Counted from the stretch's first letter, positions 6,975-41,617 are shown. The stretch: DNA of 41,617 nt from Candidatus Delongbacteria bacterium (GCA_016937995.1 JAFGVM010000053.1:1-41617), one strand, 5' to 3'. Numbers and translations: made by a program. Notes: generated by a model from the letters alone, not told the origin.

Positions 6975-7005
6975 AAAAAAGACCCTGTTCTCAGGGTCTT
7001 TTTCA
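6975..7005. terminator. Original terminator of the cNMP-binding gene, now displaced
   Basis: Stem AAAGACCCTG (6978-6987) / CAGGGTCTTT (6992-7001) with a TTCT loop. On the minus strand it is followed by eight T. It sits just downstream (minus strand) of the orphaned last codons at 7026-7055. It was therefore the terminator of the cNMP-binding gene before the 7 kb element separated them. It can also end the DUF302 transcript. Confidence 0.85.
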
Positions 7006-7025
7006 CATCTATACCACAATATCCA

Positions 7026-7058
7026 CTATATTAAATAATTTCTTAGCATAAAGTTTGC
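7026..7058 (-). pseudogene. Orphaned 3' end of the cNMP-binding protein gene (attL side)
   Basis: Read on the minus strand, 7055-7026 gives AAC TTT ATG CTA AGA AAT TAT TTA ATA TAG, which translates to NFMLRNYLI-stop. These are exactly the last nine residues of the gene at 14069-14530. The nucleotide copy differs only at synonymous positions (24 of 27 bases identical over 7029-7055 versus 14072-14098) and ends in TAG instead of TGA. This is the chromosomal 3' end left behind when the element integrated. Confidence 0.9.
7042..7052. other. attL core
   Basis: CTTAGCATAAA, identical to 14085-14095. To its left lies the chromosomal end of the cNMP-binding gene, and to its right the element DNA leading to the integrase gene. 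The crossover most likely happened within this core or the longer near-identity extending left of it. Confidence 0.8.
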
Positions 7059-7165
7059 ACTAAATTTATTAAAGTTCATTAAAAGTCATTATATAAGGCT
7101 AAATAATCTATTTAGTTTTCAATAAGATTTATTAAATATTGTTTGAAATATCTTAAATTTGTTGT

Positions 7166-7180
7166 TATATTGTTGTAAAT
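7166..7180 (+). repeat. TGTTGTAA repeat near attL (possible integrase arm site)
   Basis: TATATTGTTGTAA at 7166-7178 recurs exactly at 14009-14021 near the right end, and TGTTGTAAAT (7171-7180) recurs at 14037-14046. Repeats placed just inside both ends of an integrated element are typical of arm-type integrase or Xis binding sites. The motif is short and AT-rich, so this is only a candidate. Confidence 0.4.
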
Positions 7181-7195
7181 TATACAGGTAAAGCA

Positions 7196-8305
7196 ATGAA
7201 TAAAAAGAAACCTAAAATATTTGATCTGATCAAAAAGCTTAATTCTCATTCTGATAAAATTAAGATCAGGGCAAGAGTAAAATATGATAAGGATAAGGAA
7301 CTAATCGGATATACAGTTTATTTAGATTACTATTATAAGAAGAATCGACAACTTGAATATTTAGATAAATCTTTACATTTGGACGGCTCAATTTCTTCCC
7401 TTCCTTCTGACAAAGAAAAGCTTAGACTAATCGAAGCTTTAAGGAATAAAAAACAACTTGAACTGATCGAACAAAAAACAGGCTTCAATCTTAAAGAAGT
7501 TCAAGACAAGGATTTTATTGATTATTTTTCTAAGAATTGTAAAGATTCTGTTTTCAAGGGAAGTCTTAAAAGATTTAAAATGTTTATAAAAAGAGATTCA
7601 ATAAGGTTTGATGAAATAGATCATAAGTTATGTAATAACTTTGCTGAATATTTAAAAAAAGAGATCAAACCAAATTCAGCAGTATCTTATTTTGCAAAAC
7701 TCAAAATTGTTTTGAATAAAGCAGTTAAAGAAAAACTTATTCAAGAAAATCCTGCAAATAATATTAGCTTGAAAGGTGAACAATCAAAGCGGGAATTTTT
7801 TAGTTTAGAAGAAATACAAATCTTGGCAAAAACCGAAAAGACAAATATAAACTCTTGTAATGGTTTTATATTTTGTTGTTTTGCAGGACTTAGATTTTCA
7901 GATGTAAAGAAGTTGAAATATTCAGATATAAAAGAAGGTTATATTGAATTTAAACAAAAGAAAACAGGGCAGAATGAAAGAATGAAATTAAGTTCTTCAG
8001 CATTAAAGATCATTGATAAGCAAAAGAAAACAGTTGTAAGTGATTATGTTTTTAATTTTATGCATTATTCACAAGTTGAAAGGCATTTAAAAGAGTGGGT
8101 AAAGAGAGCAGAAATAAATAAGAATATTACCTTCCATAGTTCAAGACATACTTTCGCGACCTTGTCCCTTACAAATGATATTGATATATTTACAGTATCA
8201 AAGCTTTTAGGACATCGCGATCTTAAAACAACTCAGATATATGCTAAACTAATTGATAAGAAGAAAGATCAGGCGATTGACAAACTACCTGAAATTGACA
8301 TTTAA
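7196..8305 (+). CDS. int: Tyrosine recombinase / site-specific integrase
   Basis: A 369-aa phage-type tyrosine recombinase that integrates and, with a partner, excises the element. Residues 1 to about 100 form a basic arm-type DNA-binding region. About 105-190 is a SAM-like core-binding domain (FIDYFSKNCKDSVFKGSLKRF, helical). About 200-369 is the catalytic domain. Visible catalytic residues are Arg233 (AGLRFSD), His314 and Arg317 (HSSRH), His340 (LGHRD) and the nucleophile Tyr349 (TTQIYAKL). The catalytic lysine is probably in the FKQKKTGQ hairpin. The gene starts 144 bases inside attL, the usual position for an integrase, and reads away from the attachment site. The architecture resembles Bacteroidetes-type integrases. 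All catalytic residues are intact, so the enzyme is probably active. Confidence 0.95.
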   Translation: MNKKKPKIFDLIKKLNSHSDKIKIRARVKYDKDKELIGYTVYLDYYYKKNRQLEYLDKSLHLDGSISSLPSDKEKLRLIEALRNKKQLELIEQKTGFNLKEVQDKDFIDYFSKNCKDSVFKGSLKRFKMFIKRDSIRFDEIDHKLCNNFAEYLKKEIKPNSAVSYFAKLKIVLNKAVKEKLIQENPANNISLKGEQSKREFFSLEEIQILAKTEKTNINSCNGFIFCCFAGLRFSDVKKLKYSDIKEGYIEFKQKKTGQNERMKLSSSALKIIDKQKKTVVSDYVFNFMHYSQVERHLKEWVKRAEINKNITFHSSRHTFATLSLTNDIDIFTVSKLLGHRDLKTTQIYAKLIDKKKDQAIDKLPEIDI

Positions 8306-8322
8306 AACAAAGGCGGGCAAGA

Positions 8323-9327
8323 ATGAAAAAAGATATTGATTATTTCATCGAACAAGTAAAAAAAGATAATGATTATCTTAAAGTAAAATTCACAGAAGAA
8401 GAGATAAGCATATTAGCAAATGATCATTTTGAAACATACAAAAAAGGGAACAACCTTAAATATGAAACATTTGAAAAAGATGTTAGAAAAAGAAATGAAA
8501 AACTTACAAATAAATGGACTGAAGATGAAATCAAAGCTATTGCAGAAAGAAAATATAAATATACAAAAGAGAAGACTTATCAGATAAGAAATTATGAATT
8601 TTTCAGAAATAGAATTCTTCATAGGAAAGATATTCCTAAATCACAAAAAAATTTTGAGACTGAAAAATCTTATAAGGAAGAGCTAGACTTTATTATAAGG
8701 AATAATGCAATTGATGAATATTTGAAAGAAGAATCTAAGTGTCCTCTTTATTTTTCACTTGAAGAATATATCTCATATTGTACTTATGATCCTTATGGAT
8801 ATTCTCAATTAAATAATCAAGAAAAGATTATTTATCTAAAGAATAGGATTGTAAAAATCAAAAAAAAGTTAGCAAGGTATGAAATATTTAAGAAAACCAA
8901 ATATTATGATTGTGAACAATGTGATAATAACTATAAAGAGCAATGTAAAGAAAATGAAGATTGCATGAAATCACTATTACTCAGATTTGAACCTGATCTA
9001 GAAGCTTTTGAATTTGCAAGAGATCAAAGTAAAGATTTTAAGGACATGACATTAGAGATTGATAAAAGTAAAGATTCTGTTCTTAGAAAATGGATACGTT
9101 ACAGAGATGTAGGAAAAAGTAAATATTCAATGTTTAAATATACAACAACATACCATAGAGATTCGACAAAGAACAAACTAGAAGTATATTACGACAAGTT
9201 CACAAAAGAAAAATCTATAGAAAAATGTGCATATCGTACATTAGGAACTTATGTGCAAGAAACATATAATAGTACATTGTTAAAGATACAATACTCAGAC
9301 ATAAATAAACAAAAAATGCAAATTTAA
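8323..9327 (+). CDS. Unknown element protein with a duplicated N-terminal motif and a Cys cluster
   Basis: Not recognised. The 334-aa product is Lys/Glu/Tyr-rich, with no signal peptide or membrane segment. The N-terminus carries two copies of one motif: 'KFTEEEISILANDHFETYKK' and, about 45 residues on, 'KWTEDEIKAIAERKYKYTKE', each followed by a 'YExF..xxRxR' stretch. This suggests a tandem helical domain. In the middle is a Cys cluster (CEQC at about 200, then EQC and EDC within 16 residues) that could hold zinc. The C-terminus is basic. AAAGG lies upstream of the ATG, and the gene follows the integrase stop by 17 bases, so the two are co-transcribed. A DNA-binding or regulatory role is possible, but nothing in the sequence proves it. 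Confidence 0.75.
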   Translation: MKKDIDYFIEQVKKDNDYLKVKFTEEEISILANDHFETYKKGNNLKYETFEKDVRKRNEKLTNKWTEDEIKAIAERKYKYTKEKTYQIRNYEFFRNRILHRKDIPKSQKNFETEKSYKEELDFIIRNNAIDEYLKEESKCPLYFSLEEYISYCTYDPYGYSQLNNQEKIIYLKNRIVKIKKKLARYEIFKKTKYYDCEQCDNNYKEQCKENEDCMKSLLLRFEPDLEAFEFARDQSKDFKDMTLEIDKSKDSVLRKWIRYRDVGKSKYSMFKYTTTYHRDSTKNKLEVYYDKFTKEKSIEKCAYRTLGTYVQETYNSTLLKIQYSDINKQKMQI

Positions 9328-9496
9328 GTAGACCCTACATTTAATAGCTAAATCCTGCCCTATTCTGCCTTATTTTATAAATATTGCCATTTATTGTAGC
9401 TACTTAACTTAGTTTTGACCTATAACCTATGTTTTTTTCTGCCCTGAAAAGCATTTTACCTTTTAATAAACATTAATAAATCAAAAAGGTGGTAAA

Positions 9497-9775
9497 ATGT
9501 TAGAACAAGAAAAACATTCGACAATCGAAAAAACAAAAAAGACTCATTTCACATTCAAGGAAACACAAGAATATCTTGGAGTTTCAAAGTCGACATTATA
9601 TAAATATAATATGTATAATGTTATTCCTTACTCAAAACCAAATGGTCGCAAGGTTTATTACAAAATTGAAGACCTGAATAATTACCTTCTTAGAAATCCA
9701 ATAAGATCAGAAGAACAGCTTGACAAAACAGCAGAATTGTATTTTCAGAACTGTCCTAAAGGTCAGGCAATATAA
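9497..9775 (+). CDS. Excisionase-like helix-turn-helix protein
   Basis: A 92-aa DNA-binding protein of the HTH_17/MerR-like excisionase type. The core is FTFKETQEYLGVSKSTLYKY (about 17-36), the helix-turn-helix, followed by the wing 'YSKPNGRKVYYKIEDLNNYL' that is characteristic of this family. A strong ribosome binding site AAAGGTGG lies five bases before the ATG. Its TAA overlaps the ATG of the helicase gene (TAATG), so the two are translationally coupled. The protein could direct excision, repress or activate the replication operon, or both; these cannot be told apart from sequence. The 169-bp AT-rich stretch before it (9328-9496) probably holds the operon promoter, but I could not identify one. 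Confidence 0.85.
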   Translation: MLEQEKHSTIEKTKKTHFTFKETQEYLGVSKSTLYKYNMYNVIPYSKPNGRKVYYKIEDLNNYLLRNPIRSEEQLDKTAELYFQNCPKGQAI

Positions 9776-11214
9776 TGATATTAGAAGCTTGGCGACCCGA
9801 CACTAATCAAAGGGCAAAACAAAAACCTGAAGCCTTTAATATAAGTCGAGATAATGTAGATATATATTCATTATTATCTGACAACAAAGCAACTGACAAG
9901 GCAACGGCTGAAGCATGGCTTAAATGGATAAACTCAGAGTATGTTTATAATTATAGAACAGATCATTGGTATAAGTGGAATGGTAAATTTTGGGAACTCG
10001 ATCAGGTCGAAGAACATAAAGCTTCCTTGCTTGACTTTGCTAAGGATTTAAAGATCAGGGCAATGGAAGAACCGGAAAGGGACAGACAGAATCGAATTAT
10101 TAAGATTGCTATTGATCTTGAGAATGCAAAGACTTGGAAGGGACATTTTGAAGCTTCAGCAGTTCTAAATAATAGAATAGGTTTTAATCTTAACAGCGAT
10201 CTAATAAATTTACAGAACGGAACTTTTGACATTAAGAAAATGCAGTTCAAACAGCACTGCAAAGAAGAATATTTTAACTATTCCCTTCCCTTTGACTATT
10301 TGCCTGAAAAATCCTGTCCGACATGGATAAGCTTTTTAAATGATATATTTTTAGATAACAGTGATCTTATACATTATATAAATAAGGCAGTTGGTTATTC
10401 CCTGACTGCTGAAGTTCAAGAGCAATGTTTGTTTTTTTTATACGGAAGTGGACAAAATGGAAAATCTGTTTTCATTGAAACTTTGCTTCATATCTTTGGG
10501 GACTTTGGTATAAAAATACCTTTGACGGCTTTGTTATACAATAAGAACAATAATGAATCTTCACAACGCGAAATAATACGATTGAAAAACAAGCGGTTTA
10601 CAGTAGCTAATGAAACTGAAGAAAACGGACACCTTTCAGAAAGCATAATCAAAGACTTGACCGGTGGGGACACTTTGACAGGTCGGGAACTATACGAAAA
10701 AACGGCAGAGTTTAAAGCTACTCACAAGCTATGGATTTACGGCAATCATAAACCTATGATAAAAGGTTCTGATCTTGGTATTTGGCGAAGAATTAAGCTT
10801 ATTCCCTTCCTTTATACTGTTCCTAAAGATAAGATTGACAGGGAACTTCAAAGCAAACTGAAGAATGAACTTTCAGGCATATTCAATTGGATTTTAGAGG
10901 GTTTAAAACTATGGAAGAAAGAAGGTCTTGAACCTATTCCTGAAGAAATAACCAACGCAACGGCTGAATATAAAAACGAAATGGATATTATACAGCAATT
11001 TATAACTGATTGTTGCAACATTGCTGAAGGTCTTGAATGTAATTCTAAGGATTTATATAAGAGTTTTACAAATTGGTTAGAAGAAAGCGGAATAAAATCC
11101 CGTATTTCTAAAAATATGCTTACTAAAAAGTTAGCTGAAAAGGATTTCGACAATTACAGGGGCGGGAAGAATGTTTTGTTTTGGCTTAATATAGGATTAA
11201 AGAATGATTTATAA
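9775..11214 (+). CDS. D5/P4-type superfamily 3 DNA helicase
   Basis: A 479-aa phage/plasmid replication helicase. Residues about 35-190 resemble the D5 N-terminal domain (WYKWNGKFWEL and LINLQNGTFDI motifs). The SF3 AAA+ helicase core covers about 200-400: Walker A GSGQNGKS at 224-231, Walker B-like 'RFTVANETEE' at about 280-289, the TGGDTLTGR loop, motif C 'LWIYGNHKP' and the arginine-finger region 'GIWRRIKLIPF'. A C-terminal winged-helix-like tail follows. P4 alpha protein carries primase and helicase in one chain. Here the primase is encoded separately at 11747. Start: ATG overlapping the stop of the HTH gene. The protein likely drives autonomous replication of the excised element. Confidence 0.92.
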   Translation: MILEAWRPDTNQRAKQKPEAFNISRDNVDIYSLLSDNKATDKATAEAWLKWINSEYVYNYRTDHWYKWNGKFWELDQVEEHKASLLDFAKDLKIRAMEEPERDRQNRIIKIAIDLENAKTWKGHFEASAVLNNRIGFNLNSDLINLQNGTFDIKKMQFKQHCKEEYFNYSLPFDYLPEKSCPTWISFLNDIFLDNSDLIHYINKAVGYSLTAEVQEQCLFFLYGSGQNGKSVFIETLLHIFGDFGIKIPLTALLYNKNNNESSQREIIRLKNKRFTVANETEENGHLSESIIKDLTGGDTLTGRELYEKTAEFKATHKLWIYGNHKPMIKGSDLGIWRRIKLIPFLYTVPKDKIDRELQSKLKNELSGIFNWILEGLKLWKKEGLEPIPEEITNATAEYKNEMDIIQQFITDCCNIAEGLECNSKDLYKSFTNWLEESGIKSRISKNMLTKKLAEKDFDNYRGGKNVLFWLNIGLKNDL

Positions 11215-11333
11215 AGTTAAAAGGTTAAAAAACTTATCAAAATACGGAAAGTCTTCTTATATGTTATCTTTTTTGATTTTACCGTAAAAATACAAATATG
11301 TTAACATTATAACACTAAATAAAGAAGATGATT

Positions 11334-11750
11334 ATGAATAAAAAAAATGTACAAATGAACACTATAAGTAAATCACAGCTTGAAGATGCGATAAATTTCA
11401 ATTTAGGAATTAAAACATTGATCGCTAAAGAACTGAAGGTTTGTAGAAATACTTTAGACAAGTATATAAAAAAATATAATCTTACTGATTGTTTGGAAGA
11501 ACAAAAGGAAGATATTCGCGACCTTGTTCGGTTTAATATTGTCGAAGCTATAAGGCAAGGGGACATTAAAGTTTCTCAATGGTATGCAGAAAGACAAATG
11601 TTTGAAGAATACGGCAATAAACAGCATATAGAAACCAATTTAAAGCTAAGTGAAAAACATAAAAAAATTATTGAAGAAAGCGAAAGAGCTGAACAAATGA
11701 CAGATGAAGAATTACAAGCTGAAATTGACAGAATGCAACAAGTATTATGA
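11334..11750 (+). CDS. Small-terminase-like HTH protein A
   Basis: A 138-aa protein with an N-terminal helix-turn-helix (LIAKELKVCRNTLDKYIKKY) and a helical centre 'DIRDLVRFNIVEAIRQGDIKVSQWYAERQMFEEYGNKQHIE', ending in an acidic coiled tail. The HTH plus the GDI-x11-to-12-Y-x-KQHI pattern is that of phBC6A51-like small terminase subunits. The same pattern recurs in the gene at 12939. I chose the ATG at 11334 because AGAAG lies six bases upstream; an in-frame ATG at 11328 abuts that site and is less likely. Its stop overlaps the next ATG by four bases (ATGA). In satellites such as SaPIs a dedicated TerS redirects helper-phage packaging. That role here is inference, and a replication-regulator role is an alternative. 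Confidence 0.65.
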   Translation: MNKKNVQMNTISKSQLEDAINFNLGIKTLIAKELKVCRNTLDKYIKKYNLTDCLEEQKEDIRDLVRFNIVEAIRQGDIKVSQWYAERQMFEEYGNKQHIETNLKLSEKHKKIIEESERAEQMTDEELQAEIDRMQQVL

Positions 11751-12928
11751 TAGATATTGAAGCAATCAAATATAATAGTTCTTTATCGACAATATACGAA
11801 AGTATAACAGGGAACTCATTAAGGCAATCCGGTGGCAAGTTGTCGGGACTTTGTCCCTTTCATTCAGATAATAGGTCAGGGAACTTTTTTATATATCCTG
11901 ATAATACATATCATTGCTTTGCTTGTAACGAACACGGCGATATAATATCATTCATTGAAAAGACCCTTAATATATCATTCAAGGAAGCAGTTCAATATCT
12001 TGGCGGGGACATTACAACTAAAACAGTAAGAACGCGAAAGAAAGCACTTTACAAGCGAAAGGAAGCACCTGAAATATTAACAGATAAGACAAAAGAAATA
12101 TATCAGTTCTTTTTTTCTTCCTTGTCCATGACTTCAGAAGGATATAAATATTTGAAAGGTCGAGGGTTTAAAGATCAGATCATAAAAGAATTAAAAATCA
12201 AAAGCATTAAAGACCCGAATATGATAAGTGAAAAACTAAAGAATAATTTCAGCATTGAAGAATTAACAAGGTCGGGACTGTTTGACTTTGGGAAGAATAA
12301 AGAAGCATATTTTATATTTTATATTCCTTGCCTGATCTTTACAGCATTTGAAAACAAGAAACCTGTTTATTTTACAAGTCGGAACTTTGACAAGAAAAGG
12401 CGGTTCTTCAAATTACATAACAGAAAGCAGGATTATTTTAAGGGCGATCTTAATAAGAAAGAATTATATATATTTGAAGCGATTCTTGACGGACTTTCTT
12501 TTTATCAATTGACAGGCTTAAGCAATTTTATAATATTGTCAGGTTTAAATTATCGAATGTATGAAAAGATATTGAAAGAATATCCTGATAAAAGAATTAT
12601 TGTAGCTTTTGACAATGACAAGGCAGGGAAGAAAGCAGAAAATGACATATATATTCATTGTAAGACAAGACCTGAATGCTTTGATTATTTAGCATTGAAG
12701 AAAGCCAACGAAATAAATTATTCAGATTTTAAAGATATGAATGATCTTCTTAAACTTTATGAACTAAAGAAAGGGAGCATTGAAGTAATTAAATCAATTA
12801 TCAATGATCTGTCTGATCTTGACAGGGAACTCTTTGAAGAAAGGGCGGGAATTATGGAATATGAAGGCAATCAGACCCGACCTGAAGCAGAATGCAATGC
12901 ACTAATAAATATTTTAAATGAAATATAA
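11747..12928 (+). CDS. DnaG-like primase (CHC2 zinc finger plus Toprim)
   Basis: A 393-aa primase for element replication. The N-terminal CHC2 zinc finger has Cys36, His39, Cys57 and Cys60 (CPFH, then HCFAC), followed by the usual 'GDIISFIEKTLNISFKEAVQYL' helix. After a linker comes the Toprim domain: Glu244 in YIFEAILDGLS, then Asp289 and Asp291 in AFDNDKAGKKA. It is shorter than chromosomal DnaG (about 600 aa) and lacks the DnaB-binding C-terminal domain, fitting a partner SF3 helicase instead of DnaB. Start ATG overlaps the upstream stop (ATGA). Together with the helicase at 9775 it makes a split primase-helicase module. Confidence 0.92.
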   Translation: MIDIEAIKYNSSLSTIYESITGNSLRQSGGKLSGLCPFHSDNRSGNFFIYPDNTYHCFACNEHGDIISFIEKTLNISFKEAVQYLGGDITTKTVRTRKKALYKRKEAPEILTDKTKEIYQFFFSSLSMTSEGYKYLKGRGFKDQIIKELKIKSIKDPNMISEKLKNNFSIEELTRSGLFDFGKNKEAYFIFYIPCLIFTAFENKKPVYFTSRNFDKKRRFFKLHNRKQDYFKGDLNKKELYIFEAILDGLSFYQLTGLSNFIILSGLNYRMYEKILKEYPDKRIIVAFDNDKAGKKAENDIYIHCKTRPECFDYLALKKANEINYSDFKDMNDLLKLYELKKGSIEVIKSIINDLSDLDRELFEERAGIMEYEGNQTRPEAECNALINILNEI

Positions 12929-12938
12929 GGATAAAATT

Positions 12939-13340
12939 ATGAAGAAAGAACAGAAGGACAATTCAACTAAATTGAACAAATTATCACAAAAAAAGAAAGC
13001 ATTCATTCAGGTATTTGCAGGAACTTACGGCAATATTACAAAGACAGCTGAAGCAGTCGGAATTGATCGCGGGACATATTACAATTGGATAAAATCAGAT
13101 CTGGAATTCAAACAGGCTATAGAAGAAGTCGAGCCGGAAGAAATGCTTATTGATATAGTGGAAAGTCAACTTCTTGAAAAGATTAAGTCAGGCGATATAA
13201 CAGCGATTATATTCTTTCTGAAGACTAAGGGACAAAAACGCGGTTATACAGAAAAACAGCATATTGTACAAGAAGAAAAGAAAGGACTGACTATAATTGT
13301 TGAAAGTGAAGAACAGAAACGAATGATTGAAAAGATATAA
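12939..13340 (+). CDS. Small-terminase-like HTH protein B
   Basis: A 133-aa protein: basic N-terminus, helix-turn-helix 'NITKTAEAVGIDRGTYYNWI', then 'EEMLIDIVESQLLEKIKSGDITAIIFFLKTKG' and 'GYTEKQHI'. This is the classical pattern of phBC6A51-like HTH/small terminase proteins, and a better match than protein A at 11334. I chose the ATG at 12939 because AAGGA sits seven bases before it; the in-frame ATG at 12918 overlaps the primase stop and has no site. Having two family members on either side of the primase, with no large terminase, is unusual. It could act in packaging specificity or as a DNA-binding regulator. Confidence 0.72.
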   Translation: MKKEQKDNSTKLNKLSQKKKAFIQVFAGTYGNITKTAEAVGIDRGTYYNWIKSDLEFKQAIEEVEPEEMLIDIVESQLLEKIKSGDITAIIFFLKTKGQKRGYTEKQHIVQEEKKGLTIIVESEEQKRMIEKI

Positions 13341-13346
13341 TATAAT

Positions 13347-13375
13347 TTGACATTGCTTAATAATTATGACATATT
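13347..13375 (+). promoter_or_regulatory. Promoter of the element lipoprotein gene
   Basis: TTGACA at 13347-13352, a 17-nt spacer and CATATT at 13370-13375, about 30 bases before the lipoprotein ATG at 13407. It lies seven bases after the preceding stop codon, giving the lipoprotein expression independent of the replication operon. The -10 is weaker than the chromosomal examples. Confidence 0.45.
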
Positions 13376-13406
13376 AAGAAAAAAATATATTCGATTGGAG
13401 TTAAAA

Positions 13407-13946
13407 ATGAAAAGATTATCTTTAATTTTGTTAATACTAAGTTTTTTAGTTATTGTTTTCAATGGCTGTGCTACAATACCTTCAGGTTATAAACCAATGA
13501 CAAATAAGGAAGGTGAGCAGTTATATATTGTACAAGATAAATTTAATGATGTCAGTTTCATTAGGCATAAATATTTTTTTGGAATATTTGCAAAGACACC
13601 AATTGAAATTTATGAAATTGAAAATAGAGCTTTAAGAATAGTTTTTAAATATGTTGGTAGTGATTGGATATTTTTTACAAAAGCTATAATACTAGGCAGT
13701 CAAGGCGATAAAATCGAGTTCAATTTTAAATCTTATGATAAAAAAACTGATGTCGATAAAAATGTATATGAATCGATAGATTTACTTTTGACAGATTCTG
13801 AAGTGAATAAAATATTAAGTATTTTATCTGAAAGTGGTATTAAAAAAGTTAGACTTTCAGGGAAGTACTACAAAGATTACGAATTAAATAATAATAAAGT
13901 TGTAGCTTTAATTGAAATCATAAAGCATTATTTAAAAAATAAGTAA
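13407..13946 (+). CDS. Lipoprotein carried by the element (cargo)
   Basis: A 179-aa predicted lipoprotein: a hydrophobic signal ending VFNGC, with the lipidation cysteine at residue 21. The mature part is a small mixed domain without recognisable family (YKPMTNKEGEQLYIVQDK, then VFKYVGSDWIFFTKAIILGSQGDKIEF, and a charged C-terminus). The ATG at 13407 is preceded by TTGGAG at six bases. An upstream TTG in frame at 13347 is really the -35 box, so I reject it. The gene has its own promoter and its own terminator, as 'moron' genes in prophages do. A surface role such as superinfection exclusion or host fitness is plausible by analogy only. Confidence 0.75.
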   Translation: MKRLSLILLILSFLVIVFNGCATIPSGYKPMTNKEGEQLYIVQDKFNDVSFIRHKYFFGIFAKTPIEIYEIENRALRIVFKYVGSDWIFFTKAIILGSQGDKIEFNFKSYDKKTDVDKNVYESIDLLLTDSEVNKILSILSESGIKKVRLSGKYYKDYELNNNKVVALIEIIKHYLKNK

Positions 13947-13967
13947 TATGAAATATATAAAACATAT

Positions 13968-13996
13968 AAAAGGGCTAAAATTAAGCCCTTTTTTTA
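13968..13996 (+). terminator. Intrinsic terminator at the right end of the element
   Basis: AAGGGCT (13970-13976) pairs with AGCCCTT (13984-13990), followed by a T run. It ends element transcription before it can run antisense into the cNMP-binding gene. Confidence 0.85.
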
Positions 13997-14008
13997 TTGA
14001 TTTGTTTC

Positions 14009-14046
14009 TATATTGTTGTAAGCACGTAAATATAAATGTTGTAAAT
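14009..14046 (+). repeat. TGTTGTAA repeats near attR (possible integrase arm sites)
   Basis: TATATTGTTGTAA at 14009-14021 is an exact copy of 7166-7178. TGTTGTAAAT at 14037-14046 matches 7171-7180. Both are in the non-coding stretch between the last terminator and attR. Confidence 0.4.
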
Positions 14047-14068
14047 CATTATTAATAAGTAATATAGA

Positions 14069-14530
14069 TCATATCAAATAATTCCTTAGCATAAAATTCG
14101 AATTCTGGATCCTTTCATACAGAGAAGCATATAATTTCTTAAGGATATTGTAACCGGCTTCATTATTATTTTCGAATAATGTTGTAAGTTTATTTCCGTC
14201 AATTCTTAGGATCTGTCCTTCAGTGATAGCTTTCGCAGATGCACTTCTTCTCTTTTTGATGATACAAGACATCTCACCAAAGTTGTCGCCCGGATTGATA
14301 GTATAAATAGTTTTATTCTCTTCAAGATCATCAGCAAAGAATTTAGAAGATACATAGATCTGAACTCTTCCTGAAACAACTATGAAAAGATCATAATCTG
14401 TCTCATCATCCTCTTTTAAAAGAACCTGGCCGGGAACAATAGATTCAACGCTGGTGAAAGCACTGATCTGCTTTAAAAGATTTTCTTTACAGTCTTTAAA
14501 TATATCCGCTTTCTTCAGAAGATCTACCAT
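14069..14530 (-). CDS. Stand-alone cyclic-nucleotide-binding domain protein; integration target
   Basis: A 153-aa protein made of one cNMP-binding beta-roll (about 8-135). The phosphate-binding cassette is visible as 'GDNFGEMSCIIKKRRSASAKA' with the conserved Gly-Glu and Arg-Ser-Ala. It lacks the C-terminal helix-turn-helix of CRP/FNR regulators; only a short helix remains (about 130-153). It may be a ligand sensor that partners with another protein. I prefer the ATG at 14530, which has GGAG six bases upstream, over the ATG at 14542. The last nine codons and the stop come from the integrated element and keep the amino-acid sequence NFMLRNYLI unchanged, while the gene has lost its native terminator (now at 6975). 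Confidence 0.85.
   Translation of the reverse strand: MVDLLKKADIFKDCKENLLKQISAFTSVESIVPGQVLLKEDDETDYDLFIVVSGRVQIYVSSKFFADDLEENKTIYTINPGDNFGEMSCIIKKRRSASAKAITEGQILRIDGNKLTTLFENNNEAGYNILKKLYASLYERIQNSNFMLRNYLI
14085..14095. other. attR core, inside the 3' end of the cNMP-binding gene
   Basis: CTTAGCATAAA, identical to the attL core. Everything to its left, including the last codons and the TGA stop of the gene at 14069-14530, is supplied by the element. Everything to its right is the chromosomal gene. Confidence 0.8.
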
Positions 14531-14635
14531 AATATACTCCAAATTGTCTAAAATATTTCCCTGTGAAACAATAATTTAACTCAAGATGGTTCTTAGTGCA
14601 ACGAAAATTAATAATAAAAAAAGATAAAAATTTTA

Positions 14636-37396: not shown

Positions 37397-37430
37397 AGAA
37401 AAAGCCCGGTTTAACCGGGCTTTTTTATTT
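37397..37430. terminator. Bidirectional intrinsic terminator
   Basis: AAAGCCCGGTT (37401-37411) pairs with AACCGGGCTTT (37413-37423) with A and T runs at both sides. It ends both the thioesterase gene and the convergent beta-helix gene. Confidence 0.9.
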
Positions 37431-39937
37431 TAAGGCTTTTTAATTTCGATCGTTTGCGGGATCCCTTTTGATCTTAAAGTATCAATCGCTGTTACCGTAA
37501 AGAACCACCTTGGATCGATCCCTACTGATTTATCCCAGTGGAATGTATTAGAGTCATTTGTCCACTCAAGGTTAAAAGTTCCATATGGCTCGGTTGAGGA
37601 ATAGATCGCATAATTTGTAGCTCTTTCTACCGGCCACCATGAGATCCAGTAAATATTTCCATCCCATTCATAACTGTACCACTCAGGAGAAGGCAGATAA
37701 TAAGGGATCGATCCTTCGTAAGCACCCATATCTTTATTTCCGTTTATTATCGCTACACCTCTCTGATCAAGCAATGGAGCACCGTTATAATCACTTGTAC
37801 CGGCTCCGATCGGTATTGCATCTATAGCAGGACTGCCTTCCATCAGCGGAAATGTCAGTATTCCGCCGCCGTTGTCGGAAAGTTCACCGAGCAGACAATC
37901 TTCAACATTCTGGTTGTACTGACCCAGTATTCCGATCGTCTCATCATTACAAACTGTACAATTTCTGTCTATAACTACTACACCGCTCTCATTATTGCCG
38001 ATATCGTTTATAACTGAATTTTGAAGACTGACATTGTAATCACAGTTGAATCCGCTTGTATCGTAAACTATAAAACTTCCCTGATTGCTGTGATCTTCGT
38101 TATAGCCTGAAGTGATAGCATTGATATTCAGGTTCAGTGTACTTGAGTATGCTTCGCTTATTGTGTAAACACTGGCGTAGATCACGCCTCCACCGTTCTC
38201 CGCGGCATTTTGCGCAAAAGTAGAATTCGTCAGATTTACCGTGATCTCTTTGTTCATCACATCAAGATACATCGCGCCACCGAAATTTGAGCTGTAGTTG
38301 GAATATATCGTAGAATATGAAATATTCAGCAGGTCACCTTCGAAATAGATAGCTCCACCATTCTGGAAGTCAGGAGTAGAGCAGTTGTTTATCATAACTC
38401 TTTCAAGGGTAAGATCTCCTCTGGCCTGTATAGATCCTCCTGCACCGTCGTATCCGTTCTGTAGAGAAATATCATACAATTCCAGGCTTGAATCTTCAAG
38501 TATAAGGAAAAGTCTTGATTCTGCTGTCTGGCCGTCCGGACACGCTTTTAGAAAAGTCTGATCAGCACCTTGACCCCGGATAATATAATTTTTATCTGAC
38601 GTCTGGCCTAAAACATAACCGTTCGCTACAGCCACATTTACATTAGGATCATCGCTCATGTAAAACGTACCTGTCATATCAACGATATCACCTTCATAGT
38701 AGTAACCTAATGCTTTTGAAAGATTTGCCCACGGTGAATTTTGAGAACCGTCCCCGGTGTCGTCGTCTCCGGTCCTGCTGTTAAGATAGAAAGTAACGAA
38801 CTGGTCGAATTCGTATGCACCTGCATCTTTATTACTTCCTCTGCTTATCCCCACACCTCTCTGATCGGTAAGCGGGGCTCCGTTATAAGCAGTACCTCCT
38901 TCGGGTATAGAATTGATCACTTTACTGCCGTATTGAGTCGCGTGAGTCATGGTCTGCCCACCATTGTCGGCAAGAGGTTCGAGCATGGGATCCACACTGT
39001 TGTAATATGAATTTGTAGTCGGCAGCGTTTCGTCACTGCTGAAAGTAAATGATCTGACAAGGTTAACAGTCCCACCGCTTGAAGTGTTCTCATTGTAGTT
39101 GTAAGAATTGTTGAATACTGAATTTCTTATGTCCAGATCTACAAGTGCAGTATAGGTTGAAGGTTCAGCAGTAATACAGTTCAAACCATCACCTGCAGAA
39201 CTTCCTGTCGTATTTTCAGCCACCGTACAGCTGTTCATGGTAAAATCAATAGTGACATTGCGACTGTTCGCAGCAGCAAACAGGAAAATACCGCCCCCGC
39301 TGTTGTTATTTACTGTGTTGCCGGAAACTGTCGTGTTTATCATTGTAATGCTTTGAAGAGATGAATATAATCCCTGACTGTAAAGAGCGCCGCCGTATTC
39401 ACCTGCAGTATTGTCATGTATTGTAACACGGTTGAAAGTAAGATTTCCGTAATTGAATATTGCTCCGCCATAGTCAGTGCACTGATTGTTTGAGATATTC
39501 ACATCGATCAGATTAAGAACATGCCAGTTTATAATAGCTCCGCCGTTACCTGCTGACACACCGTTCTCAATAGACATATTCATCATCTTAACTGCAGAAC
39601 CGATATTTACTTTGAATACCCTGTACGCAGCTGTAGCGGGATTCAGGTGTGCTTTAACAAAAGTACTTTTAGCTCCTTCGCCGATAAAGGTCAGGCTTTT
39701 TGTGATCTCGATCCCGTTTGACGTGACTCCAGGGTCCTGGCCGAGATAAAATGTGCCTGAAAGCATTAGAGTGTCACCCGCAGCAGCCTGTGAAATTGCG
39801 TACGAAATGTGTTCCCACGGTCCCAGCTGGGTTCCGGGATGTACGTCACTGCCTTTAGCGCTGTCAACATAATAGGTTGCAGAGAATAAAGATACTGCTG
39901 CAAGCATCATAATTATAAGCAGGATCGGTTTTTTCAT
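37430..39937 (-). CDS. Secreted two-module parallel beta-helix protein with choice-of-anchor-Q segments
   Basis: An 835-aa exported protein (signal peptide 1 to about 20, ending LFSA). It contains two similar modules of about 365 residues (about 20-376 and 377-742). Each opens 'xxYYVDSxxGxDxxxGxxxxPWxxIS', continues 'GDTLMLSGTFYLGQDP', then right-handed beta-helix coils rich in Asn/Gly (NGGAI, YGGALYS), and closes with 'DPMLEPLADNGGQTMTHA...GAPLTDQRG...DAGAYE', the choice-of-anchor-Q pattern. A fibronectin-III-like domain (about 750-835) ends the chain; no T9SS sorting domain is visible. Its ATG overlaps the stop of the upstream paralogue by four bases (ATGA). The base composition is visibly more GC-rich than the neighbours (29 of 60 bases in 38761-38820). 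Likely an adhesin or polysaccharide-binding surface protein. Confidence 0.88.
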   Translation of the reverse strand: MKKPILLIIMMLAAVSLFSATYYVDSAKGSDVHPGTQLGPWEHISYAISQAAAGDTLMLSGTFYLGQDPGVTSNGIEITKSLTFIGEGAKSTFVKAHLNPATAAYRVFKVNIGSAVKMMNMSIENGVSAGNGGAIINWHVLNLIDVNISNNQCTDYGGAIFNYGNLTFNRVTIHDNTAGEYGGALYSQGLYSSLQSITMINTTVSGNTVNNNSGGGIFLFAAANSRNVTIDFTMNSCTVAENTTGSSAGDGLNCITAEPSTYTALVDLDIRNSVFNNSYNYNENTSSGGTVNLVRSFTFSSDETLPTTNSYYNSVDPMLEPLADNGGQTMTHATQYGSKVINSIPEGGTAYNGAPLTDQRGVGISRGSNKDAGAYEFDQFVTFYLNSRTGDDDTGDGSQNSPWANLSKALGYYYEGDIVDMTGTFYMSDDPNVNVAVANGYVLGQTSDKNYIIRGQGADQTFLKACPDGQTAESRLFLILEDSSLELYDISLQNGYDGAGGSIQARGDLTLERVMINNCSTPDFQNGGAIYFEGDLLNISYSTIYSNYSSNFGGAMYLDVMNKEITVNLTNSTFAQNAAENGGGVIYASVYTISEAYSSTLNLNINAITSGYNEDHSNQGSFIVYDTSGFNCDYNVSLQNSVINDIGNNESGVVVIDRNCTVCNDETIGILGQYNQNVEDCLLGELSDNGGGILTFPLMEGSPAIDAIPIGAGTSDYNGAPLLDQRGVAIINGNKDMGAYEGSIPYYLPSPEWYSYEWDGNIYWISWWPVERATNYAIYSSTEPYGTFNLEWTNDSNTFHWDKSVGIDPRWFFTVTAIDTLRSKGIPQTIEIKKP

Positions 39938-41617
39938 TTTTTACTCCTGAATATTTTAAATTTTTTTAAATTTGAAATTTCTGATTTTGTTTCGTTATTT
40001 TTAGAATTGCTTGCAACAATGTAATAAAATACTTTGTTCTCAGTAATAGTTCCTGTCCAGCTGTTTGTAAAGACTGTGTCTTCGATATTGTAAGAATCAT
40101 ACGGGTCAGTTGATGAATAAATGATATAAGATGTTGCACCATTCACATTATTCCAATTCAGTGTAATTTCACCTGAATCGATCGAAGAAACAACATTTTG
40201 CGGAATTCCTAAAGTTTCAGAAATGAAACCTTCAAAAGCTCCAATATCTTTCATGTTGTTTATTATAGATATTCCCCTCTGATCAAGAAGAGGAGCGCTG
40301 TTCCAGTTTCCTGAGCCGGAACTGAACGAGATCGCATCAACTGCCGGACTGCCTTCTTTTAGAGCATGAGTAAAAGTTCTTCCTCCATTATCTGCAAGAG
40401 GGTACAGCATTATATCAACATTGTTCAGATTTCCGTTAACAGATCCGTCAGGCATACTGGTATCGTTACAAAGTGTAAATGATCTGGTAATATTCAGAGT
40501 TCCGGTATTGTCAGCGTAGTAAACTGTATTGAAGTTATCAAAGAGAGAATTTTTAACATTGAAATTCATTATGGCAGAATCATAATCGTCTTCCACATTT
40601 AAAAAACATAAAGTTTCAAAAGTATTTCCGACAATTGAACATGAATTCACATTTAAATTCAATTCAGTTGGTCCCTGGTTGCTACCGCCGATACAGTCTA
40701 TATAAAGTCCTGATCCGTAAGTATCTGTAGAATTACCAGAGATCGTACAGTTTTCAATACTGAGTGATTTCTCTGATGCGGAAGCATGGTATAAGTATAT
40801 TCCTCCCCCTTTACCGTTGCTGTGATTATTAAATATTGAACAGTTGATTATTGAAGCACTTAACATCGAATTAGCTCCTATAATATACAGACCTCCTCCA
40901 TCTCCTGTTGCGGAACATTCAGAAATGTTTACATTTTTAAGTGTCAGAGATCCACCGCTTAGTATTCCTCCTCCGGTGTTACCGGAATTACCATTCATTA
41001 TTGACATATCTTCAATTGTTGCATTATCAGAATATAAAGATATAACTCTGTGTTCAGATATTCCCGGATCGGGATTGGCTTTAATAAAAGTGACATCCGC
41101 TCCCTGTCCCTGAATGACAAGGTCATCATAAACACCAGCTCCAGTATAAATTGATACATCAGGATCTTCGTTCAATAAAAATGTTCCGGTAACATCAATC
41201 GTATCTCCGTCTATCAGCTCAGGATTGTTAACTGAATAGCAAATGTATTTCCACGGAGCAGATTCCGAACCATCATTAGAATTATCACCGGTGTCAATAT
41301 TGACGAAGAATCTTTTGTTCGTATTATACTCATAAGCTCCCATGTCTTTATCATCGTGGAATATGAGTTCCCCTCTCTGGTCATCAAGCGGAGCTCCGTT
41401 CCAGTCCCCGCTTCCGTCTGTAAAAGATATCGCGTTAATTACCGGGCTGTTCCTCATCAAAGCATGAGTCATTGTAAAACCGCCATTATCGCTCAGTAAT
41501 TCAAGCATAGGGTCAGTATTAGCTATATTCCCGTTTAGAGCTGCATCAGGAAGGCTGGAATCCGTACAGATATTATATGAAAATGCCTTCAATATTGTGC
41601 TTGAAATGGAATTCTCA
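39934..41617 (-). CDS. Paralogous beta-helix surface protein (5' end beyond the window)
   Basis: The frame stays open to the edge of the window, so at least 561 C-terminal residues are seen and the start is missing. Contents: the end of one module (to about residue 88 of the visible part, closing with the 'DQRGE...DMGAYEY' anchor-Q motif), a complete module (opening 'FFVNIDTGDNSNDGSESAPWKYI', with GTGGGI and DGGGLYI beta-helix turns, closing 'DQRGISIINNMKDIGAFEG') and a fibronectin-III-like tail (SSTDPYDSYN, VFYYIVASN). It is a diverged copy of the protein encoded next, and the two genes overlap by four bases, so they are co-expressed. An apparent start at 41592 is an internal TTG inside the module and not the real start. 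Confidence 0.88.
   Translation of the reverse strand, partial: ENSISSTILKAFSYNICTDSSLPDAALNGNIANTDPMLELLSDNGGFTMTHALMRNSPVINAISFTDGSGDWNGAPLDDQRGELIFHDDKDMGAYEYNTNKRFFVNIDTGDNSNDGSESAPWKYICYSVNNPELIDGDTIDVTGTFLLNEDPDVSIYTGAGVYDDLVIQGQGADVTFIKANPDPGISEHRVISLYSDNATIEDMSIMNGNSGNTGGGILSGGSLTLKNVNISECSATGDGGGLYIIGANSMLSASIINCSIFNNHSNGKGGGIYLYHASASEKSLSIENCTISGNSTDTYGSGLYIDCIGGSNQGPTELNLNVNSCSIVGNTFETLCFLNVEDDYDSAIMNFNVKNSLFDNFNTVYYADNTGTLNITRSFTLCNDTSMPDGSVNGNLNNVDIMLYPLADNGGRTFTHALKEGSPAVDAISFSSGSGNWNSAPLLDQRGISIINNMKDIGAFEGFISETLGIPQNVVSSIDSGEITLNWNNVNGATSYIIYSSTDPYDSYNIEDTVFTNSWTGTITENKVFYYIVASNSKNNETKSEISNLKKFKIFRSKK

Follow-up and report, generated by a model that had tools for sequence, protein, structure and literature searches.

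Gene content and relatives of a probable minimal phage satellite in a Candidatus Delongbacteria genome

Boundaries and integration site

We analysed a stretch of 41,617 nucleotides from a Candidatus Delongbacteria bacterium (GCA_016937995.1 JAFGVM010000053.1:1-41617), here called the window, in which all positions are counted from the first letter. The window carries a mobile element of 7.04 kb (about 7018-14098), which sits in the 3' end of a gene for a cyclic-nucleotide-binding-domain (CNB) protein. The element encodes an integrase, replication proteins and two proteins resembling the small terminase of tailed phages (TerS), and is discussed below as a probable phage satellite.

The ends of the element are marked by a repeat of 38 nt (attL at 7018-7055, attR at 14061-14098) with 31 of 38 positions identical, a number reached in none of 400 dinucleotide shuffles of both end regions (shuffle maximum 29). 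Both copies encode NFMLRNYLI-stop, the C-terminus of the CNB protein, on the minus strand. The CNB gene is kept intact (14069-14542, minus strand, 157 aa, PF00027 7e-17), and its orthologues in four related genera end with NFMLRN(F/L)LI-stop. The flanking DNA retrieved around these orthologues gave no match to the integrase of the element, so the sites in the four genera are empty. A rho-independent terminator was found at 6977-7006, directly after the left repeat copy on the minus strand, and the related genome G006 has a terminator at the equivalent position. From the shared C-terminal codons, the ends of the orthologues and the native terminator it therefore follows that the element integrated into the end of the CNB gene, moved the native 3' end away to attL, and brought with it the copy at attR, which now supplies the final codons of the gene. 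This confirmed the att-framed boundaries which an earlier note on this DNA had proposed.

An 11-mer, TATTGTTGTAA, occurs on the plus strand at 7168-7178 and again at 14011-14021, about 50-120 bases inside each end, and has no other exact copy in the window. These two copies may serve as arm sites of the integrase. The GC content was 25-35% inside the element and 33-38% in the flanks.

Gene content

Eight intact genes, all on the plus strand, were identified between 7196 and 13946, with about 90% coding density, and their families were assigned by profile searches with Pfam, PHROGs and NCBIfam. The first gene (7196-8305) encodes a tyrosine recombinase of 369 aa as integrase (PF00589 1.6e-21, PF13102, PHROG_1), and the second (open reading frame 2, ORF2; 8323-9327) a protein of 334 aa, which belongs to no family and had no relatives in any library used. 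The third gene (9497-9775) encodes an AlpA/Xis-like DNA-binding protein of 92 aa with a helix-turn-helix (HTH) of HTH_17 type (PF12728 7e-9), which also matched the excisionase/regulator family PHROG_66 (2e-6). The non-coding gap before the HTH and helicase genes contains three copies of TNCTGCCYTR (9353-9446), a candidate regulator site or set of origin iterons; 0.8 copies are expected in the whole 41.6-kb window, for a pattern that was picked post hoc.

Two genes belong to replication. One encodes a D5/SF3 helicase of 479 aa (9775-11214; D5_N, Pox_D5 and P4-type primase C-terminal families, TIGR01613 8e-82) without an N-terminal primase domain, and the other a DnaG-type primase of 393 aa (11747-12928) with CHC2 zinc finger and Toprim domains (PF01807 2e-16, PF13155 1e-12, TIGR01391 domain). 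The helicase aligns with phage primase-helicases only over the last two thirds of their length, and its relatives on viral contigs have 733-851 aa. Presumably the primase activity that is absent from the helicase is supplied by the separate CHC2-Toprim protein. The remaining genes encode the two TerS-like proteins and, at the end, a predicted lipoprotein of 179 aa (13407-13946) without family, of which the signal peptide and cysteine were recognised by eye. We read it as cargo, which may have a role in superinfection exclusion.

Start and stop codons overlap at 9775, 11747/11750 and 12918/12928, which is matched with the operon overlaps reported before. The integrase, Xis-like HTH protein, SF3 helicase and separate CHC2-Toprim primase of the earlier note were all recovered as family matches, but its list of element proteins had left out ORF2.

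No family of large terminase (TerL), portal, capsid, tail or other virion proteins, and none of lysis, relaxase, mobilization or conjugation proteins, was found among the eight proteins in these searches, in agreement with the previous statement that virion and conjugation genes are missing. The size and the integrase would fit an integrative mobilizable element driven by a conjugative helper. However, the relaxase or conjugation genes by which integrative mobilizable and conjugative elements are recognised are lacking, and TerS has no role in conjugation, so we regard this explanation as very improbable.

TerS proteins

The TerS-like protein encoded at 12918-13340 (TerS-b, 140 aa) matched PHROG_309 (3.6e-11) and five other TerS PHROGs. 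Over 100 aa it shares 42% identity with the protein directly preceding TerL in phage PJN03. It is 39% identical to the protein in the same place in phage 1/32 and 40-46% identical to proteins of viral contigs, and both contigs that were opened (L014, L015) have TerL next to it. It also retains the full length of phage TerS, including the C-terminal FFLKTKG-RGY block of TerL-adjacent phage TerS. Judged by these similarities, TerS-b is a true phage packaging protein of tailed-phage origin, which would act in packaging here too.

The other protein (TerS-a, 11328-11750, 140 aa) is divergent. Its match to TerS PHROGs was only 0.003 by itself, while its alignment to the TerS profile reached 92% (E 7e-7) with hhalign, and the TerS of other such elements were matched with 1.9e-8 by phmmer and 2e-5 by BLASTP. 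We read TerS-a as a divergent member of the TerS family. It means that the two small-terminase-like proteins claimed earlier are one clear TerS and one distant relative, weak when taken by itself. Single-sequence AlphaFold models of TerS-a and ORF2 reached pLDDT of only 49 and 41, too low to be used for a fold search.

The top Pfam model for both proteins is PF13022, a generic helix-turn-helix. This model and the divergence of TerS-a could point to a self-replicating, plasmid-like integrative element, in which the TerS-like proteins would be DNA-binding regulators or replication factors, and which would spread through natural transformation, in vesicles or by chance transduction, with no dedicated packaging switch. 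Primase-helicase pairs are found in plasmids too. Against this, TerS-b keeps the full length and C-terminal block described above, and at least six other elements, whose replication genes are unrelated, also have TerS at the end away from the integrase, so we consider a plasmid-like element unlikely.

TerL in the host genome

The host genome is 97% complete, and TerL was absent from it in a search with the PHROG_2 profile (E 0.001), while the same profile matched in 11 of 14 control genomes. By this test there is no resident prophage with TerL, and therefore a helper phage would need to come from outside. The D5 helicase and TerS-b had no further copy in the host genome, and no copy in 12 related genomes of the family.

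Similar elements in other genomes

A TerS alignment was scanned against 85,000 species genomes and gave 55 loci. Most of them are ordinary prophages, with TerL, portal or capsid genes beside TerS. However, at least six other compact elements have integrase, replication and TerS genes without TerL, bounded by exact repeats of tRNA ends, and repeats that long were obtained in none of 500 random placements per locus for all six. Their hosts are Kapaibacteria, other Bacteroidota, an Opitutales and a Desulfothermus. L050 (Kapaibacterium, 4.4 kb, 17-nt repeat, tRNA-Met) encodes integrase, HTH_17 protein, G2P-type Rep, TerS and a lipoprotein-like protein. L074 lies on the complete chromosome of Kapaibacterium Ch6 (8.2 kb, 16-nt repeat, tRNA-Lys) and encodes integrase, a protein X, HTH_17 protein, D5 helicase, zinc-ribbon protein and TerS. 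The others are L051 (Bacteroidia, 7.5 kb, 20-nt repeat, tRNA-Gln), L056 (Desulfothermus okinawensis, 7.6 kb, 46-nt repeat, tRNA-Arg), L077 (Opitutales, 6.3 kb, 34-nt repeat, tRNA-Pro) and L237 (6.2 kb, 17-nt repeat, tRNA-Ala), the last found when 297 genomes from the same phylum as L074 were searched.

In all six, as in the window, the integrase lies at one end, TerS is near the other, TerL is missing, and the target gene stands on the TerS side with its 3' end facing the element. L050, L051 and L074 have HTH_17-type genes, and small HTH genes of a similar kind occur in L056 and L237. L050 has the integrase (1e-45), HTH_17 protein (9e-15) and TerS (2e-23) in common with the window element in the same order, and also ends with a lipoprotein-like gene, though the two lipoproteins were not alignable past the signal peptide. 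By these matches L050 is the relative whose plan comes closest. With L074, the window element has in common the stand-alone D5 helicase (3e-51) and also the gene order, integrase-X-HTH-D5-zinc-ribbon protein-TerS. The six differ from the window element in att sites within tRNA genes, in a single TerS, and in replication modules unlike its own, such as G2P-type Rep, D5 with zinc-ribbon/DUF6371 protein, Prim-Pol and others.

A comparable split of helicase and primase was found in L074, which has a D5 protein of 502 aa and a zinc-ribbon/DUF6371 protein, and in L239, with an AAA_25 ATPase. In the window, L074 and L239, TerS is immediately preceded and overlapped by a zinc-finger or primase-like gene. 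The zinc-ribbon protein of L074 had no relatives in the viral-contig scan.

Integrase and TerS persist in these elements, and the replication module is swapped (D5, G2P-type Rep, Prim-Pol). In the TerS tree, which has few columns, the TerS of the elements are scattered among phage TerS with nine label changes, at least two of them forced by well-supported branches. The elements' TerS are not one clade, and TerS was therefore probably captured more than once, the scatter being as expected of repeated capture.

These relatives also bear on a decayed prophage, which would have lost the structural half and been left with the integrase, the genes for replication and the first gene for packaging. 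The order integration-replication-TerS is the left-half order of many temperate phages, and TerS is phage-derived. But eight intact genes with about 90% coding density, overlapping start and stop codons and both att sites do not look like decay, and random decay would not be expected to leave the same truncated plan at six or more independent sites in different phyla. We saw no relative in which this gene set, together with TerL and capsid genes, lies between the same att sites. So we give this explanation only a small probability. The earlier note had named, as what would overturn a satellite, related copies that always carry TerL or capsid genes, or conjugation genes; what we found instead are the TerL-less elements above, one of them on a complete chromosome.

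Some loci are possible elements only and were not counted: L064, L233 and L234 at contig ends, and L239 and L240, for which no clear tRNA site is evident. In L233 (end of G318:C22) and L234 (end of G318:C108), both of one genome, TerS is followed by host genes instead of TerL. The two have near-identical flanking fragments and are likely two further such elements split by the assembly. Eight loci (L033, L034, L035, L040, L041, L044, L062, L072) were not counted as satellites because a gene of 395-598 aa directly downstream of TerS is probably a divergent TerL. L069 was truncated by a contig end, and L042 was left out, as the genes around it do not belong to an element. Among small human-faecal 'Bacteriophage sp.' records, those opened for a similar integrase or primase had no adjacent TerS, and in the one opened for TerS, TerL adjoins.

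A few further observations were made at these loci. In L056 (2938-10590) the integrase frame is broken into several pieces, with both 46-nt tRNA-Arg repeats intact, which may mean a stranded element or a sequencing error. The less certain L240 (G099:C24), from the 297-genome search, is in the same Kapaibacterium genome as L050. This genome thus apparently harbours two distinct elements with TerS and without TerL, whose HTH_17 proteins are related (E 1e-23) and whose replication genes are unrelated. A similar methyltransferase gene flanks L064 (1-2580, a metagenome-assembled genome of Ignavibacteria) and L074 (2170-3036), on opposite sides relative to TerS. The zinc-ribbon proteins of the two are 51% identical, so related elements may share a chromosomal neighbourhood in opposite orientation.

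Comparison with known satellites

A phage satellite is defined in general as an element which is not a phage and which encodes mechanisms or signals favouring its packaging in phage-made particles (PMC11389934). The window element encodes a factor for redirecting packaging, as TerS is assigned by sequence, and has no complete virion or packaging motor of its own, nor is TerL present in the genome. The genotype half of the definition thus applies to this element.

In TerS-encoding PICIs and SaPIs, TerS redirects the helper terminase to the pac site of the island (PMC10690885, PMC6092414). The window element has in common with them an integrase, an HTH regulator, a primase/helicase module, its own TerS and the lack of structural and lytic genes. 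PICIs carry integrase, replication module and master regulator in a conserved order (PMC6092414). The window element has genes for such functions in a similar order, int-HTH-replication-terS, without recognised PICI-specific orthologues or a recognised PICI core at the sequence level. PICIs are also described by attachment sites that prophages never use (PMC6092414); for the window element the comparison covers the four empty orthologous sites. However, its 7.04 kb is below the 12-15 kb typical for PICIs (PMC6092414), it has no recognisable capsid-size or interference genes, it carries a stand-alone D5 helicase with a DnaG-type primase and two TerS-like proteins, and its host is outside the listed PICI hosts. 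It also lacks the capsid, portal and both terminase subunits of capsid-forming PICIs.

PICMIs of Vibrionaceae are very small and have a core of integrase, AlpA-type HTH and primase; their integration site is next to fis, and none of their genes is identifiable as a packaging gene (PMC10803314). The window element is also very small and has these three functions, but its insertion point is the CNB 3' end, and it carries TerS. The core of P4-like satellites consists of alpha, ash, alpA, Sid, Delta, Psu and integrase (PMC12424806). Integrase, AlpA-like HTH and a D5/SF3 helicase of P4 alpha type are shared, but the window helicase has no fused primase, and no Sid, Psu, Delta or Ash family was found. 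So the element is not a member of the P4, PICI or PICMI families on the features compared, and the P4/PICI label of the earlier note does not hold as membership, because size, core genes and att sites differ. Small integrative elements outside the classical families have been proposed as satellites in work cited by PMC11389934 and PMC10690885.

Proposed life cycle

The best explanation of the element is probably a minimal phage satellite, which would borrow phage particles and redirect packaging with its own TerS. Insertion into the CNB 3' end and excision would be the work of the integrase, for which the HTH_17 protein would act as AlpA/Xis-like switch. Replication of the excised circle would fall to the DnaG-type primase and the D5 helicase. 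On infection by a tailed phage, the TerS of the element would bind a site on element DNA and recruit the TerL of the helper, as in TerS-bearing SaPIs (PMC10690885, PMC6092414). Helper heads would then be filled with element DNA, which at 7 kb would be packaged as concatemer or in small heads. Concatemer packaging, as shown for PICMIs (PMC10803314), is plausible by analogy for a 7-kb element without capsid-size genes. The lipoprotein would be made by the host cell, perhaps excluding other phages. The satellite-type interpretation of the earlier note is supported. The analysis establishes the gene content, the boundaries with integration in the gene end, the empty sites of relatives, the lack of TerL in element and host genome, and the recurrence of the plan in other phyla; excision, replication, recruitment of TerL, packaging by a helper, transfer and what the lipoprotein and the second TerS do are steps that we infer.

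Several points weigh against a satellite. With 7 mismatches in 38 positions between its att halves, the element may be an old insertion that no longer moves. No helper was found in the host genome by the TerL profile search. A TerS-like HTH protein could act as a regulator. The primase, TerS-a and ORF2 had no relatives in the viral-contig scans, and no close copy of the whole element was present in the collections searched.

Apart from the element, the window has at 37430-41592 two adjacent large genes (835 and 552+ aa), which are similar to each other and contain repeated modules of secreted proteins (polymorphic outer-membrane-like repeats, DQRG-type blocks).

Significance

Known satellites have widespread homologues in Pseudomonadota and Bacillota, and homologues also occur in other groups, Actinomycetota among them (PMC10690885). 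For Bacteroidota and other FCB lineages, no description of satellites was found in the open-licence papers searched, a scope which limits any claim of novelty. The split of helicase and primase and the doubled TerS are outside the classical satellite gene sets in the literature compared. Our results suggest that small phage parasites exist in bacterial groups with few or none described before.

Tentatively, and with more doubt than confidence, we speculate that minimal satellites of Bacteroidota/FCB bacteria, with members also in Verrucomicrobiota and Thermodesulfobacteriota, form a broad class that has not been described before. This class would be defined by its layout, with integrase first, TerS last and the target on the TerS side, and not by common ancestry of all parts; TerS would be repeatedly recaptured from phages and replication modules swapped, and the two TerS of the window element could engage two helper motors. 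If these elements are satellites, hitchhiking by TerS alone would be far more widespread, and such elements would have a simple search signature: an integrase and a TerS between direct repeats, without TerL.

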